DNA from: Actinomadura macra NBRC 14102
GTDB lineage: Bacteria; Actinomycetota; Actinomycetes; Streptosporangiales; Streptosporangiaceae
Assembly: GCF_001552215.1 (NCBI RefSeq)
Contig: NZ_BCQT01000026.1
Coordinates: 1-64,000, forward strand
Direction of reading: 5' to 3'
Length of the DNA: 64,000 bases
Positions 26,371-46,742 of the stretch are shown here, in pieces; positions within the stretch are counted from its first letter, which is position 1, and every line of letters begins with the position of its first letter. Both the position numbers and the translations under genes were made by a program. The notes below the pieces were generated by a model, which saw only the letters and a program-made list of their open reading frames with translations, ran no database searches and was not told where the DNA came from.

Positions 26371-26967
26371 CTAGGAACCGGCTTCGCAGTTGACCGTGAA
26401 TGCGGAACCGTCCCCGCCGTTGCACGTGTCGTAGCCGGGCCCGCCGTCGATGATGTCGTGACCGCCGCCGCCGTCGATGACGTCGTTGCCGTCGCCGCCC
26501 CAGAGGTTGTCGTTCCCGTCCTCGCCCTTGAGCTTGTCGTCACCGTCATGACCGATCAGGTTGTCGGTGCCCGCGTTTCCGTTGAGGTAGTCGGGAGCGG
26601 TGCCGCCGATGAGGGTGTCGGCCCCGGTCCCACCGCGTGCGGAGACCGATCCCGTCGGCTGGACCACGAAGGAACCGATCCAGTCGTTCTCCCCGTCTCC
26701 GCAGGCCACCACGTCCGACCCGAAGGGGCCGTCACTGATCTGGTCGAGGAACACCCGGTCATCGCCGGCCAGGGTGGTGATGACCTGACCGTTGGACGCC
26801 CAGATGTTGTCGTTCTGGGCCGTCCCGGTGACGGTGACGGTCAGCGGCTGTCCGGTCCGCTCGTCCAGGCAGGTCGCGGCCGCGGCCGACGCCGGGCCGG
26901 CCGCGCCGACCGGACTCAGCGCCGCGCCGAGCAGCGTCAGCGTTCCGAGAATCGTTCGGAGCTGCAT
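26371..26967 (-). CDS. Secreted RTX-like (hemolysin-type) calcium-binding repeat protein
   Basis: The 198-residue product has a Sec signal peptide (MQLRTILGTLTLLGAALSPV, cleavage expected after an ASA near residue 28). A beta-roll follows, built from GGxGxDxLxG-type nonapeptides at about 115-180: GGTGADTLIGG, GNAGTDNLIG, GEDGNDNLWGG, GGGGHDIIDGG. Each turn pair binds calcium outside the cell, stabilising the roll. Two C-terminal cysteines (DTCNG and NCEAG) may form a disulfide. ATG 26967 has AAAGGAG nine bases upstream. It is short for an RTX protein and has no catalytic domain. Confidence 0.85.
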   Translation of the reverse strand: MQLRTILGTLTLLGAALSPVGAAGPASAAAATCLDERTGQPLTVTVTGTAQNDNIWASNGQVITTLAGDDRVFLDQISDGPFGSDVVACGDGENDWIGSFVVQPTGSVSARGGTGADTLIGGTAPDYLNGNAGTDNLIGHDGDDKLKGEDGNDNLWGGDGNDVIDGGGGHDIIDGGPGYDTCNGGDGSAFTVNCEAGS

Positions 26968-42674: not shown

Positions 42675-43480
42675 GGCAGCTGGAGCCAGCCGAAGGCGAG
42701 GGTGGCGGCGGCGACCGGCACACCGACGAGGGCCAGCCGTGGCCACTGTGCGCGATCGCGGTAGACGGCGGCGACGGCGGCGCAGGCGCAGAGCCCGGCC
42801 AGGTAGGCGACATGTAGCCACGGTTCGCCCGGCCCCGGTGCCCGGCCCTCGAAGCTGGAGTCGGTCGTCCACCACATCCACCAGACGCCGGAGTCGAACC
42901 GCCTGAACAGGATGACGCCACCCAGGGTCGCGACGACGAAGGTGATCAGCGCGCCGCCCGCGAAGGGCAGCCAGCGGGCGGCGAGGACGCCGAGCAACCC
43001 GGCGCCGGCGAGGACGAACGGGAGCTGGGCGAGTTGGCCGGCGGTCAGCAGGTCCTCGGGCGGAATGTCGTTGAAGCCGCTGTCGATGACAGCCATGGCA
43101 CCGGCCCCGATGGCGCCGGCTCCGGCCGGCGGGAGCGCGACACCCAGACTCATCGCCCAGGTCCGACGCGTGTCCGTCGTCGGCGTGACGCTCAGCATCT
43201 CCTCGGCCCGGTTGCGGCGCGCATTACTGGCGACCAGGTTCGCCGAGAAGAGGACGAATATGGGCCCGAAGAACGCGACGACGGTGAAGATGGTGCCGTA
43301 CCAGTAGCCGGCGGTCCGGCCGCCGCTGGCCGTCTCGACGCTGGTGGTCACGGCGACGACGACGGGTACCGGCCACAGCACGGGATGCCGGACGAGGAGG
43401 CGGGCCTCCCGGCCGATCAGGGGTGCCAGGCGGCGAGAGACGGACGTACGCGGGCTGGCGACGGAGTCCAGAGCGGTCAT
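42671..43480 (-). CDS. ABC transporter permease (ABC-2 type)
   Basis: The 269-residue protein has a cytoplasmic N-terminus (RLAPLIGREARLLVRHPVLW) and about six membrane helices, with FFGPIFVLFSANLVASNARRNRAEEMLSV following the second helix in the usual ABC-2 arrangement. With the ATPase encoded just upstream (4-base overlap) it should form an export pump. The substrate is unknown, but operons of this type under an ECF sigma factor often serve antibiotic or envelope stress resistance. Confidence 0.82.
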   Translation of the reverse strand: MTALDSVASPRTSVSRRLAPLIGREARLLVRHPVLWPVPVVVAVTTSVETASGGRTAGYWYGTIFTVVAFFGPIFVLFSANLVASNARRNRAEEMLSVTPTTDTRRTWAMSLGVALPPAGAGAIGAGAMAVIDSGFNDIPPEDLLTAGQLAQLPFVLAGAGLLGVLAARWLPFAGGALITFVVATLGGVILFRRFDSGVWWMWWTTDSSFEGRAPGPGEPWLHVAYLAGLCACAAVAAVYRDRAQWPRLALVGVPVAAATLAFGWLQLP

Positions 43481-44337
43481 GAGTGGGTGACCTCCAGCTC
43501 GGGTTCGCCCATGAGCAGGAGGTACGCGTCCTCCAGTGTGGGTGGGATCAGATCGGCGCCGGCGGGTGGGTCGCCAACGTTGCGGTAGGTGCCGTCACCG
43601 GTGCGCCATGCCGCAAGTGCGGCGGGCGATCGCTGCGTGTCTGTCCACACGCGACCCGCGGCCTGCACGGTCAGCTCGGTGGGGGTGCCGGCGAATCGGG
43701 CTCGGCCCTGATGGATCACGGCGATCCTGGAGCACAGGGCGGTGATGTCCTCGGTCTGGTGGCTGGACATGACCACCGTGCGCCCCTCGCCGGCTTGAGA
43801 GATCATCTCCCGGAACCGCAGCCGCTGCTCGGGATCGAGGCCGACCGTCGGCTCGTCGAGGACGAGCAGGTCGGGATCACCCAGCATGGCCTGGGCCAGC
43901 CCGACCCGCCGGCGCATCCCGCCGGAGAGGGCCCTGATCCGCTTGGCGCTGACGGGTACCAGCCCGGTCAGCGTGATGACTCGGCGGACTTCGTCATGCC
44001 GGGCCCGCCGGTCGGTCATCTCCTTCAGGATCGCCACGTAGTCGATGAACTCGAAGACCGTGAACCCCCGATGGAAACCAGCATCCTGCGGCAGGTAGCC
44101 CAGCCGTTCACGGATCCGCGTACGGTCGTCGGGTCGCGACGGGTCGCGGCCCAGCAGCGTCACCGTGCCCTGATCCGGCGCCAGAACGGTGGCGATCATC
44201 CGGAGCAGTGTCGTCTTTCCCGCCCCGTTCGGTCCGAGCAGTCCGGTCACCCCTGGGCCGGCTTCGAGGTCGACGCTGTCCAGCGCCCTCGTACGACTGA
44301 AGGACTTGGTCACGCCATGGACGCGTACTGTGGTCAC
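43477..44337 (-). CDS. ABC transporter ATP-binding protein
   Basis: A 286-residue ATPase with Walker A GPNGAGKTTLLRMI near residue 35, Q-loop YLPQDAGFH, signature LSGGMRRRVGLAQAML near 140, Walker B LLVLDEPTVGLDP and the H-loop in MSSHQTEDI. The C-terminal 70 residues after the ATPase core are longer than minimal and end near GEPELEVTHS. It energises the two membrane proteins downstream. GTG 44337 overlaps the upstream stop (GTGA). Confidence 0.93.
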   Translation of the reverse strand: MTTVRVHGVTKSFSRTRALDSVDLEAGPGVTGLLGPNGAGKTTLLRMIATVLAPDQGTVTLLGRDPSRPDDRTRIRERLGYLPQDAGFHRGFTVFEFIDYVAILKEMTDRRARHDEVRRVITLTGLVPVSAKRIRALSGGMRRRVGLAQAMLGDPDLLVLDEPTVGLDPEQRLRFREMISQAGEGRTVVMSSHQTEDITALCSRIAVIHQGRARFAGTPTELTVQAAGRVWTDTQRSPAALAAWRTGDGTYRNVGDPPAGADLIPPTLEDAYLLLMGEPELEVTHS

Positions 44338-45155
44338 GCGCTTCTCCCCAGCTTGATCGTGACGGTGTTGCGGGTGACGGCGAGCCAGGTGCCGCCGGCG
44401 ACGGCCACGGCGAGCCACAAGACCTGGGAGCCGATTCCGAAGGCGAGGTCGAGGCGACCGGCGATGACGGTCGGGGCGGTCACCAGCACCCACGCCGTGG
44501 CCACGGCGCCGACCGCGACGACGGGCGTCATCCGGGCGGTCAGAGCCAGCACGGCGCACGTGAGCCCGGCGGTGGGCAGCAGCCAGGCGGCGGCCAGCCA
44601 TTTCGAGCCGGGTAGCACGAGCCCGGCCGCGGCCACGATCGGCACGGTGACCGCCAAGACCGCGGCCGTGCGGATCAGCAGCAATCGCAGCCCTGAGTAT
44701 GGCGCGGCGAGACCGATCTCCCGGGTCGGGTCGACGCCGCCCGCGAAGGCGAGCGCGACACCTGCCAGCGGCCCGAGTGGGGCCGCCACGAGAAACATTC
44801 GCAGCAAGCGCTCATCGACCTGAGCCGCCCAAGCCGCGAGCGCGAGTACGCCTGCGACGGCCAGCAACCATGGCCCCCGCAGCGTCGGCGTCGTGACCAC
44901 GAGACGCGCCGTCGCCTCGCCCACACCGAGCCGGACCAGCATCCGTTCGGGCCAGCTCCGCCGGGGTGCGTCGACCCGGTGAACCACCTCGTACCAGATC
45001 CTCTCCACCCGCCGAGCATCCACATACGACGAGATCACGCCCCGGCAGACCGCACACTTCAGCAGGTGCGCCTCGGCGGACGCGGCCAAGTCCGACGGGG
45101 CACCTCCCTGCGCGTACCGGCGGATCGCCTCCGGATCCAGATGCCATACGGTCAT
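44334..45155 (-). CDS. zf-HC2 anti-sigma-like protein with multi-helix membrane domain
   Basis: The N-terminal 75 residues carry the zinc anti-sigma pattern HLLKCAVC (His-x3-Cys-x2-Cys), typical of proteins that hold an ECF sigma factor. About seven hydrophobic helices follow (VTTPTLRGPWLLAVAGVLAL through VLWLAVAVAGGTWLAV), so the anti-sigma head is fused to a large membrane domain that resembles a transporter subunit. This suits a sensor that reports on the exporter. ATG 45155 has GGGAGG at the right distance and the domain start; ATG 45206, in frame through the 17-base repeats, is an alternative. Confidence 0.82.
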   Translation of the reverse strand: MTVWHLDPEAIRRYAQGGAPSDLAASAEAHLLKCAVCRGVISSYVDARRVERIWYEVVHRVDAPRRSWPERMLVRLGVGEATARLVVTTPTLRGPWLLAVAGVLALAAWAAQVDERLLRMFLVAAPLGPLAGVALAFAGGVDPTREIGLAAPYSGLRLLLIRTAAVLAVTVPIVAAAGLVLPGSKWLAAAWLLPTAGLTCAVLALTARMTPVVAVGAVATAWVLVTAPTVIAGRLDLAFGIGSQVLWLAVAVAGGTWLAVTRNTVTIKLGRSA

Positions 45156-45206
45156 CCCAACCTCCCCGTCATCGCAACCTCCCCGCCATGCCAGCCTCTC
45201 GGTCAT
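45156..45206 (-). repeat. Three 17-bp repeats forming a chain of minicistrons
   Basis: Three tandem units (45206-45190, 45189-45173, 45172-45156, minus strand) each begin with ATG and contain an AGAGG or GGGGAGG ribosome site for the next ATG. ATG 45189 reads six codons to a TGA overlapping ATG 45172, and that one reads six codons to a TGA overlapping ATG 45155, the anti-sigma start. The first unit's ATG overlaps the sigma stop (ATGA). A fourth, degenerate unit lies in the sigma gene end. This can act as a termination-reinitiation relay setting the sigma to anti-sigma ratio. Confidence 0.7.
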
Positions 45207-45742
45207 GCCAGCCGCTCCCGCAACAGAGCGCGGGCGCGCATCATCCGTGTCTTGACCGTGCCAGGCGGGATTCCCAGCAACTGGGCGGCCTCCCGCGTCG
45301 TCAGTCCGTCCAGGACGGTCGCCTGCACCACAGCCCGTAGCTCCGGTGACAGGCTCGCCAGGGCCGCACCCACGTCGCCGTACTGGACGGCGAGCAGCAC
45401 GTGCTCCTCGGCTGACGTCTCGACGCCGGCGAACTCCGTCAGCTCATCGGCCGGCGGCCGGCTACGCCGCAGCGCGTCGACCAGACGGCGGATGCCGATT
45501 CCCCAGATCCACGCGGCCACCTCGCCCCGGCGATCCCACCGCCCGGCCGACCGCCAGACCACCACGAACGTGTCCTGCACCACCTCATCGACGAGCTCCG
45601 GCGACGAGCAGCGCCGTCCGAGGCGCACCAAGAGCCACGGCAGGTGCCGCCGGTACAGCTCAGCGAACGCCTCCCGGTCACCGTCGATGATCGCCGCGAG
45701 GAGTTGGGAGTCCTCCCGTGGATCCGGTGGTCGCATCAGCAT
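45203..45742 (-). CDS. ECF-type RNA polymerase sigma factor
   Basis: A 179-residue ECF sigma factor. Region 2 spans about residues 15-80 (FAELYRRHLPWLLVRLGRRC, then DEVVQDTFVVVWRSAGRWDR), and region 4 the last 60 (LSPELRAVVQATVLDGLTTR, then EAAQLLGIPPGTVKTRMMRA). It should direct transcription of its own operon, held in check by the zf-HC2 protein encoded next. ATG 45742 has GGAAGG six bases upstream; ATG 45736 overlaps the hydrolase stop and is an alternative. Confidence 0.92.
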   Translation of the reverse strand: MLMRPPDPREDSQLLAAIIDGDREAFAELYRRHLPWLLVRLGRRCSSPELVDEVVQDTFVVVWRSAGRWDRRGEVAAWIWGIGIRRLVDALRRSRPPADELTEFAGVETSAEEHVLLAVQYGDVGAALASLSPELRAVVQATVLDGLTTREAAQLLGIPPGTVKTRMMRARALLRERLA

Positions 45743-46404
45743 GCGTCACCTTCCGGGACCCGTCCCTCGACGAGATACAGGGGCATCGGCTCGGCGACGC
45801 ACGGCGAGCGTCCGATCATGTCGTCGAAGGCCGCCTGCGGATCTGGCGGTCCGTCGAGGACCAGCGCGCGAACCCGGTCGGGGAACCGAGAGGCGTAGTG
45901 GACTCCGAGCCGCGCACCGTACGACCAACCGACGAAGGTCACGTCCTCGCTTGGCGCGGCCCGCAGCAGGTCGAGGTCCCGCGCGGTCGCGCCGGTCGAG
46001 AGGACGGCCGTGCAGTCGCCAAGCGTGTCGACACAGGACCGCGCCTGCGGCTGAAGCAGCGCCCTCGCGGCGAAGCCAGAGCTGGTCAGCAGGCTCTGTG
46101 CAACCGCGGCGGCCTGGCCAGCCGGCAGGACTCCGCATCGGATCGGAGCGGACCGCCCGGCGTGATCGACCGCCACCATGAGCGTGGCGCACGGTACGTC
46201 CGGCCGACCCGGCCGACCCGGCCGGGGCTCAGGCAACGGCGCCGACTCCCACACCGAGGGCGCGGCCCACCCGAAGAACGCCGAAATCGGGCCACCGCGA
46301 TCCGCGGTCGGCGACCAGGAGCAGGCACCCACCGTGACCGCCATGCCGGCCACGGGCCATCGCGGCACCCACGAGGCCCAACGCTTGAGGTAGCTCCCAT
46401 CCAC
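45736..46404 (-). CDS. Lipoprotein alpha/beta hydrolase with internal deletions (TAP-like)
   Basis: Members of this secreted tripeptidyl-aminopeptidase-like family have about 450-520 residues; this one has 222. It keeps a lipobox (TVGAC, Cys28), CATLMV, GRSAPIRCG, ATARDLDLLRAA, the nucleophile elbow GWSYG (Ser161), FPDRVRALVLDGPPDP and the family's very C-terminus SPCVAEPMPLYLVEGRVP. The segments between Val-Asp80 and Gly83, and between Asp189 and Gly198, are missing, the second taking the catalytic aspartate and histidine with it. Both gaps keep the frame. It is the first gene of the operon and overlaps the sigma gene. It may be catalytically dead. Confidence 0.75.
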   Translation of the reverse strand: MDGSYLKRWASWVPRWPVAGMAVTVGACSWSPTADRGGPISAFFGWAAPSVWESAPLPEPRPGRPGRPDVPCATLMVAVDHAGRSAPIRCGVLPAGQAAAVAQSLLTSSGFAARALLQPQARSCVDTLGDCTAVLSTGATARDLDLLRAAPSEDVTFVGWSYGARLGVHYASRFPDRVRALVLDGPPDPQAAFDDMIGRSPCVAEPMPLYLVEGRVPEGDAC

Positions 46405-46742
46405 GCCCTGTTCGTCGTACCGGGCCAGGCGAACGGTTCACCGAGGACCGATTCGACTCGCCACGACCACCCGGCTGGCCCGAACAAGACACCCGCCACA
46501 GGTCACACGACCTCCAGCTTCGATGTCCGCCCGCCCCTGTCAAGCCGTCCGCCCACCGCCACGATCGTGGCCGCCGACCCCACGGCTTCTCCGGTCTCGC
46601 ACCCTGCCCGCCGCCGTCGCAGTTGCCGCCCCCGGCATACGCGTTCCGCGGACGCTGAGGAGGGTCACGATCGTCATCTGACAAGACCCGCCTGGCTTCC
46701 TCCGGTTTTGACGCATGCCCATATCGGCATATGATGGCATCC
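46405..46742. other. Divergent intergenic region before the ArsR operon
   Basis: This 338-base gap separates the sigma/ABC operon (minus) from the ArsR operon (plus). The ArsR promoter sits at its right end. For the minus operon I see no confident ECF-type -35/-10 pair. The open frames are shadows. Confidence 0.4.
46708..46735 (+). promoter_or_regulatory. Sigma-70-like promoter with ArsR operator, leaderless start
   Basis: TTGACG (46708-46713) and TATGAT (46730-46735) are separated by 16 bases, close to the ideal -35/-10 pair. The expected start is 46741-46743, which coincides with ATG 46743, and no ribosome site is seen. ATGCC-CATATC-GGCAT (46715-46730) lies between the two boxes, where bound ArsR protein would block polymerase. 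Confidence 0.6.

Follow-up and report, generated by a model that had tools for sequence, protein, structure and literature searches.

The window, a stretch of 64,000 nucleotides from Actinomadura macra NBRC 14102 (contig NZ_BCQT01000026.1, positions 1 to 64,000), carries on its minus strand a gene for a sigma factor, a gene for a membrane protein resembling anti-sigma factors and a gene for the ATPase of an ABC transporter. The 179-aa sigma protein is of ECF type, having regions 2 and 4: Pfam Sigma70_r2 (residues 29-95) and Sigma70_r4_2 (residues 124-174) both score above cut-off. The anti-sigma-like protein has an HxxxCxxC motif (HLLKCAVC) near its N terminus, read by eye and a candidate for the zinc-binding motif of ZAS-type anti-sigma factors; zf-HC2 falls below cut-off in the window (E 0.26) and in the orthologue L031 (E 0.01), and is above cut-off in the relative L043 (2.4e-5). 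By direct reading, the sigma gene ends in GAG CGG CTG GCA TGA, its stop occupying 45205-45203. Three units of 17 bp (45206-45156) separate it from the anti-sigma-like gene, and ATGs stand at 45206, 45189, 45172 and 45155, exactly 17 bases apart. The features are as follows.

45203..45742, minus strand: ECF-type sigma factor gene, 179 aa; TGA 45205-45203 overlaps ATG 45206 as ATGA.
45190..45206, minus strand: repeat unit 1, ATGACCGAGAGGCTGGC; its ATG lies in the anti-sigma frame, without a stop (sequence, ORF list).
45173..45189, minus strand: repeat unit 2, ATGGCGGGGAGGTTGCG; Shine-Dalgarno (SD) sequence GGGGAGG (sequence, Tandem Repeats Finder, SD energy).
45156..45172, minus strand: repeat unit 3, ATGACGGGGAGGTTGGG; the same as the single unit of the orthologues L031, L036 and L038 (sequence, orthologue comparison).
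45169..45189, minus strand: minicistron MAGRLR-stop; its TGA overlaps ATG 45172 (sequence).
45152..45172, minus strand: minicistron MTGRLG-stop; 4-nt overlap of its TGA with ATG 45155 (sequence).
45156..45206, minus strand: 17 codons that may extend the anti-sigma protein at its N terminus, should translation begin at 45206 (open frame).
44334..45155, minus strand: membrane anti-sigma-like gene, 273 aa; conserved start 45155, aligned in all nine close sequences.
43477..44337, minus strand: ABC transporter ATPase gene; its GTGA start overlaps the anti-sigma stop (Pfam ABC_tran, gene call).

A preliminary description of this DNA had reported three 17-base repeats, each with an ATG and a ribosome site, and direct reading of the minus strand confirms them: every unit has its ATG at the front and a purine-rich, SD-like stretch inside. 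It had also been correct that ATG 45189 and ATG 45172 open six-codon frames with the TGA inside the next ATG (4-base overlaps), and that 17, being 21 minus 4, is the period that such a step of stopping and restarting needs. Tandem Repeats Finder places the array at 45151-45210, with period 17, 3.5 copies, 81% matches and a score of 71, which ranks third highest among its 69 rows for the window; given the junction alone it finds 4.1 copies, with the end of the sigma gene as copy 0. A run of four ATGs spaced 17 bases apart is found at one place in the window and in none of 100 dinucleotide shuffles, and a single ATGA-N13-ATGA is weakly above chance (2 in the window against 0.32 expected, a count of 2 being reached in 2 of 100 shuffles). 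In the ORF list the frame from ATG 45206 (ATGACC...) is free of stops for 17 codons and then enters the anti-sigma gene, 290 aa in total; no stop is met because the second boundary reads ATGG and not ATGA. Unit number sets the frame: one unit yields a minicistron, two would shift the sigma-stop ATG to the third frame, and three bring it back to the anti-sigma frame.

Among the best 80 of 125 loci obtained by scanning genome contigs were eight close orthologues (L031-L038), 93-96% identical in sigma. With whole-genome loci added and repeats removed, the junction set contained 108 distinct sequences, nine of them close (including the window) and 99 distant. In the distant group the sigma stop overlaps a start as ATGA in 82 cases, GTGA in 14, CTGA in one and TTGA in two. 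In 84 of the 99 the overlapping start is in frame with a W-H motif that the close anti-sigma proteins likewise carry at their beginning (the motif is absent in 10 and in another frame in five), and in 92 that start opens a frame of 100 codons or more; direct overlap is therefore the rule in distant homologues. Repeat number among relatives, a comparison that the preliminary description had proposed, proved to differ: against three units in the window, seven of the eight close orthologues have one 17-bp unit, arranged as ATGA-13 nt-ATGACC with one closed six-codon frame, and L033 has one 18-bp unit, which leaves its sigma-stop ATG in frame with anti-sigma. The peptides of the one-unit forms are MTGRLG (L031, L036 and L038), MTGRST (L032), MTGRPG (L034), MTGRSA (L035) and MTGRLR (L037), so that the window's minicistron at 45152..45172 matches a lone minicistron of these orthologues. 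Unit length and GGGAGG are invariant across the seven rows, where four-fold sites of sigma are 73% identical. One of the seven, L038, is from Actinomadura syzygii (genome G458), of the same genus as the window.

In a tree of joined sigma and anti-sigma proteins from nine close and eight distant rows, the close rows form one group (support 100/100) and the window is nested in a set of seven (five one-unit rows, L033 and the window; support 98/92). As the window thus stands among one-unit rows, one unit is likely to be the ancestral state of the clade and three the result of later growth. The unit matches the sigma end at 11-12 of 16 positions in the one-unit rows compared, and is judged from this resemblance to be a diverged copy of that end. 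No close member beyond those named was found in 65 genomes of the genus, 345 of the order, 394 of the class and 350 of further families, sets that overlap and of which those for class and family were drawn from larger groups; the one-unit clade is small and patchily distributed.

Other features of the operon and its surroundings were recorded during the comparison. The operon (42.6-45.8 kb) shows 83-90% DNA identity to its counterparts in eight relatives belonging to Pseudonocardiaceae, Micromonosporaceae, Streptosporangiaceae and Thermomonosporaceae, and a sigma match below 1e-100 was present in only two of 65 genus genomes, its own included. Such identity across families, together with rarity in the genus, suggests horizontal spread. 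Compared with the close orthologues, the window has about 0.58 kb extra (45771-46351) between the upstream region and sigma: in six of the eight a piece matching all or part of window 46351-46468 lies within about 100 bp of the sigma start. The extra DNA, which looks like an insertion, includes a portion of an ORF resembling alpha/beta-hydrolases (45736-46404), and the stop of that ORF directly adjoins the start of sigma. A distant homologue, L138 (G112), has at its sigma/anti-sigma junction a 9-bp tandem array, GGCATGAGC, of 7.3 copies with several in-frame ATGs.

The close and distant junctions also differ in their SD sites. An SD core is present in the sigma end of none of the nine close sequences, as against 79 of 99 distant ones, and the ATG at the sigma stop is preceded by an SD of -7.0 kcal/mol in eight of the nine, compared with a mean of -10.8 in distant homologues (n=96). 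Before the anti-sigma start, where the unit supplies the SD in close rows, the energy is -11.5 to -13.0 kcal/mol. Values for the four starts of the window are -7.0 (45206), -9.9 (45189), -12.5 (45172) and -12.3 kcal/mol (45155). A stable RNA structure at the junction was considered and set aside, predicted folds varying between orthologues.

Overlapping genes, or genes with a very short gap between them, are regarded as a requirement for reinitiation, and an insertion between coupled genes should therefore weaken their coupling. We lean towards an explanation in which the junction was duplicated in tandem, the minicistron of the one-unit form acting as an adapter and the three-unit form adding start sites. 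With one unit, a ribosome ending sigma would restart on the overlapping ATG, make six codons and restart again at the anti-sigma ATG, and its passage over the minicistron would keep the anti-sigma SD open; coupling could thereby survive an insertion that would otherwise weaken it. The three-unit form of the window would provide two further start sites. The bulk of anti-sigma would still be made from 45155 and some from 45206 with an N-terminal extension of 17 residues, while the minicistrons at 45189 and 45172, entered only through initiation at those ATGs, would be occasional stepping stones. Any tuning would be slow and evolutionary and not phase variation.

The one-unit layout is that of a leader-ORF booster, a short frame with the following gene's SD inside it and its own stop at that gene's start codon. 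In E. coli, according to PMC13255528, synthetic short ORFs with an internal SD raised downstream translation up to about 20-fold, worked best with both start and stop, and lost their effect as the distance from stop to start grew. For gene pairs of E. coli and Haloferax, PMC10666635 describes reinitiation that falls with distance and is nearly abolished at about 20 nt, shorter distances giving variable, pair-specific results; a study cited in a review, as summarised in part of PMC12548453, saw no effect on coupling of spacings from -4 to +25 nt. Since native coupling drops with distance and leader ORFs lose effect with distance from stop to start, it seems reasonable to read the minicistron as an adapter by which the -4 spacing is regained at either end. 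Conservation of ATGA, SD and spacing could be explained by the anti-sigma start alone, in which case the peptide need not be translated, and a unit length of 2 mod 3, having a one-in-three chance in a single event, counts against the adapter. Furthermore, both the window and L033 have a sigma-stop ATG that reads into anti-sigma in frame, and the adapter step is therefore not universal in the clade.

Similar arrays occur at other junctions. The strict pattern ATGA-N13-ATGA-N13-ATGA was found in 123 of 342 order genomes and 37 of 65 genus genomes, many of the matches being tandem arrays with differing unit sequences; the window's own genome contained no strict period-17 triple. Junction cases include the following.

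L316: three units (MTEGSA, MNEGSA, MNEGGA) between DUF58 and TgpA genes.
L317: two 17-bp units; probable orthologue of the L316 junction in a second species of the genus.
L338: three units between lipid A-type acyltransferase and GT4 glycosyltransferase genes.
L271: three units between ABC ATPase and MGH1-like hydrolase genes.
L286: two units between genes for the small and large subunits of a NiFe-hydrogenase.
L359: period 20 (MTFEETR, MTFEEPR) between GH4 hydrolase and PfkB kinase genes.
L221, in the window's own genome: one junction duplication of 17 bp (MIAVWE); both flanking genes are leucine-rich-repeat-like.

These cases raise the wider proposal that junction duplication is a recurrent route, in Actinomadura-type genomes, to chains of six- or seven-codon minicistrons, kept when the period closes the frames (17 or 20), with coupling preserved or retuned by unit number and the sigma/anti-sigma array as one partly degraded example. 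We regard this generalisation as doubtful. Some arrays have weak SDs (L320, for example, -0.6 to -1.7), and in such arrays ribosomes would reach the second gene most easily by moving from one closed frame to the next. Genome-wide enrichment of six-codon leaders closed by ATGA was not found in the window's own genome: with the upstream frame open, an ATG lies 17 nt upstream of 9 of 518 called genes with ATGA or GTGA starts (the window's included), against 11 of 730 with other starts. An apparent excess of ATGA-N13-ATGA in the same genome (55, against 12 for the reversed pattern) was dropped, the reversed pattern being no matched control.

Whether closing periods are preferred can be judged from strict ATGA triples in the 65 genus genomes, which number 38 in 16 genomes at the non-closing period 16, 95 in 37 genomes at period 17 and 41 in 18 genomes at period 20, the last two periods being closing; period 18 (59 of 65 genomes) was left out, coding repeats seeming dominant there. 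Triples at period 20 barely outnumber those at period 16, an argument against closure as the cause of the period-17 excess. With coding judged by frame length and GC3 rather than by annotation, arrays lay between two genes at 2 of 19 period-16 loci, at 10 of 30 period-17 loci of the genus (part of the arrays behind the 95 matches) and in 6 of 30 period-20 locus rows, three of which repeat an array already counted. A second period-17 set, of 30 loci with none from the genus, gave 4, about as period 16. Units are less than 65% alike in L333 and L334, two of the ten genus cases, and in L272, one of the four in the second set, which makes these unclear as duplications, and L316 and L317 probably represent one orthologous event. 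On the period-16 side, L303 looks false, the likely gene start by eye lying further in, and L298 (16 bp) has an 11-codon frame closed over two units. Fisher's test of the period-17 genus set against period 16 gives p = 0.09 as counted and p = 0.03 without L303, values that are no more than suggestive.

Arrays ended at a gene start in 8 of 30 cases in the period-17 order set and 3 of 19 at period 16, against a background of 18% of ATGAs opening a long coding-like frame, and under a slightly looser rule in 13 of 30 cases in the period-17 genus set and 12 of 30 period-20 rows; this measure is near background for some of the sets and was not relied on by itself. A less selected scan, covering 100 stretches of 20 kb from two genomes and the window (itself chosen for its array), found strong repeats (12 or more of 16) at the junctions of 4 of 670 adjacent pairs: period 17 in the window and L221, 19 in L386 and 54 in L387. 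No period preference was found among these 670 pairs. Some counts thus suggest a preference for closing periods and others do not.

Three other accounts of the window array were weighed against the adapter. The array may be a neutral spacer, tolerated debris of duplication, with anti-sigma initiated directly at 45155 and the minicistrons a by-product of duplicating ATGA with a 2-mod-3 unit. Direct initiation is available, since 45155 has its own strong SD and an aligned start in the nine close sequences; isolated six-codon leaders are at genome background, and some junction repeats differ in length (19 and 54 bp in G005, 16 bp in L298). We nevertheless consider a neutral spacer somewhat unlikely, given that the sigma-end SD core is missing from all nine close rows, that seven of eight orthologues keep the 17-nt length and that closed chains are found at other junctions. 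Alternatively, most ribosomes in the window would restart at 45206, making units 1-3 coding and the principal product a 290-aa anti-sigma with the 17-residue extension. Like the ATG or GTG of 96 of the 99 distant homologues, ATG 45206 shares bases with the sigma stop, its frame is open and the sigma-stop ATG of L033 is likewise in frame; its SD, the weakest of the four, and the seven orthologues that have no such in-frame start make read-through on this scale rather unlikely.

The preliminary description had envisaged ribosomes relayed through every repeat to 45155, with a tunable or phase-variable ratio of sigma to anti-sigma. What stands of this is the pair of consecutive closed minicistrons with their SDs. 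A closed entry from sigma is missing in the window: a ribosome restarting at 45206, the simplest site after the sigma stop, would read in the anti-sigma frame past both minicistrons. The further claim that copy number would alter frame and ratio is borne out in part, by the frame arithmetic, and the apparently orthologous genus junctions L316 and L317 do differ in unit number. Phase variation found no support, the copies being imperfect and the variation in unit number, with one genome compared per species, being seen between species only. The full relay is accordingly, in our estimation, highly improbable.

The nearest natural case to the array is that of the mycobacterial interspersed repetitive units (MIRUs), repeats between genes whose unit number differs between strains and whose units, at tens of bp, are clearly longer than 17 bp. 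Presence at many loci, as for MIRUs, was not found for the 17-bp unit, which was checked in its own genome's ATGA-N13-ATGA list; it is a local copy of the junction, other loci carry other units and the parallel arrays examined have unit sequences of their own. Because it is locally derived and 17 bp long, the unit is not a MIRU. The likeness lies in the 4-nt overlap that couples MTGRLG-stop to the downstream start 45155: MIRUs, as far as the passages of PMC12548453 go, have an ORF that becomes coupled at -4 nt to the gene at the insertion site, and they are apparently mobile, inserting at start codons. Termination-reinitiation at ATGA, as set out in parts of PMC10666635, has the same boundary geometry and is usual in this sigma/anti-sigma family, whereas the window and one-unit arrays chain through six-codon frames and not through one direct overlap. 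In the synthetic bicistronic designs and ORF boosters treated in sections of PMC13255528, a short leader ORF with the next SD and a stop at the next start drives translation; the present array differs in being natural, tandemly repeated and placed between two operon genes. In Salmonella, mgtQ, a short ORF between mgtC and mgtB, promotes mgtB translation and is likewise a natural intergenic ORF helping a second gene; it is reported to act through stem-loops and acidic peptide residues, and the extract of PMC8092293 makes no mention of a tandem repeat. MIRUs (PMC12548453) and synthetic leader ORFs (PMC13255528) work alike, and in view of these and of mgtQ (PMC8092293) the preliminary statement that there was no described case was too strong. 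Titles and abstract openings of open-licence PMC articles yielded none on tandem minicistron arrays formed by junction duplication or on this sigma/anti-sigma pair.

If the adapter explanation holds, a duplication that brings its own closed minicistron would offer a way round the loss of coupling on insertion, and unit number would be a natural dose series for stop-restart steps, with natural differences of one versus three (sigma/anti-sigma) and three versus two (the DUF58-TgpA junctions L316/L317). The consequences would be greatest for genes whose products must be kept in strict proportion, such as sigma and anti-sigma or the subunits of a hydrogenase.

Other repeats were encountered along the way. 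In L387 and L388 (G005) a repeat roughly 54 bp long lies between genes; its boundary has ATGAGCG, it contains a GGGGGG/CCCCCC stretch, and it may be a MIRU- or REP-like element. A related non-tandem sequence, ATGA..CACCTTCAAATGAGTCGAACTATGAAATGA, recurs in six genus genomes (G435, G438, G441, G005, G454 and G002), and sequences of this type may be a dispersed regulatory element. Elsewhere in the window, at 26408-26547, there are 27-bp repeats whose minus-strand reading resembles glycine/aspartate-rich nonapeptide repeats, RTX-like by eye.
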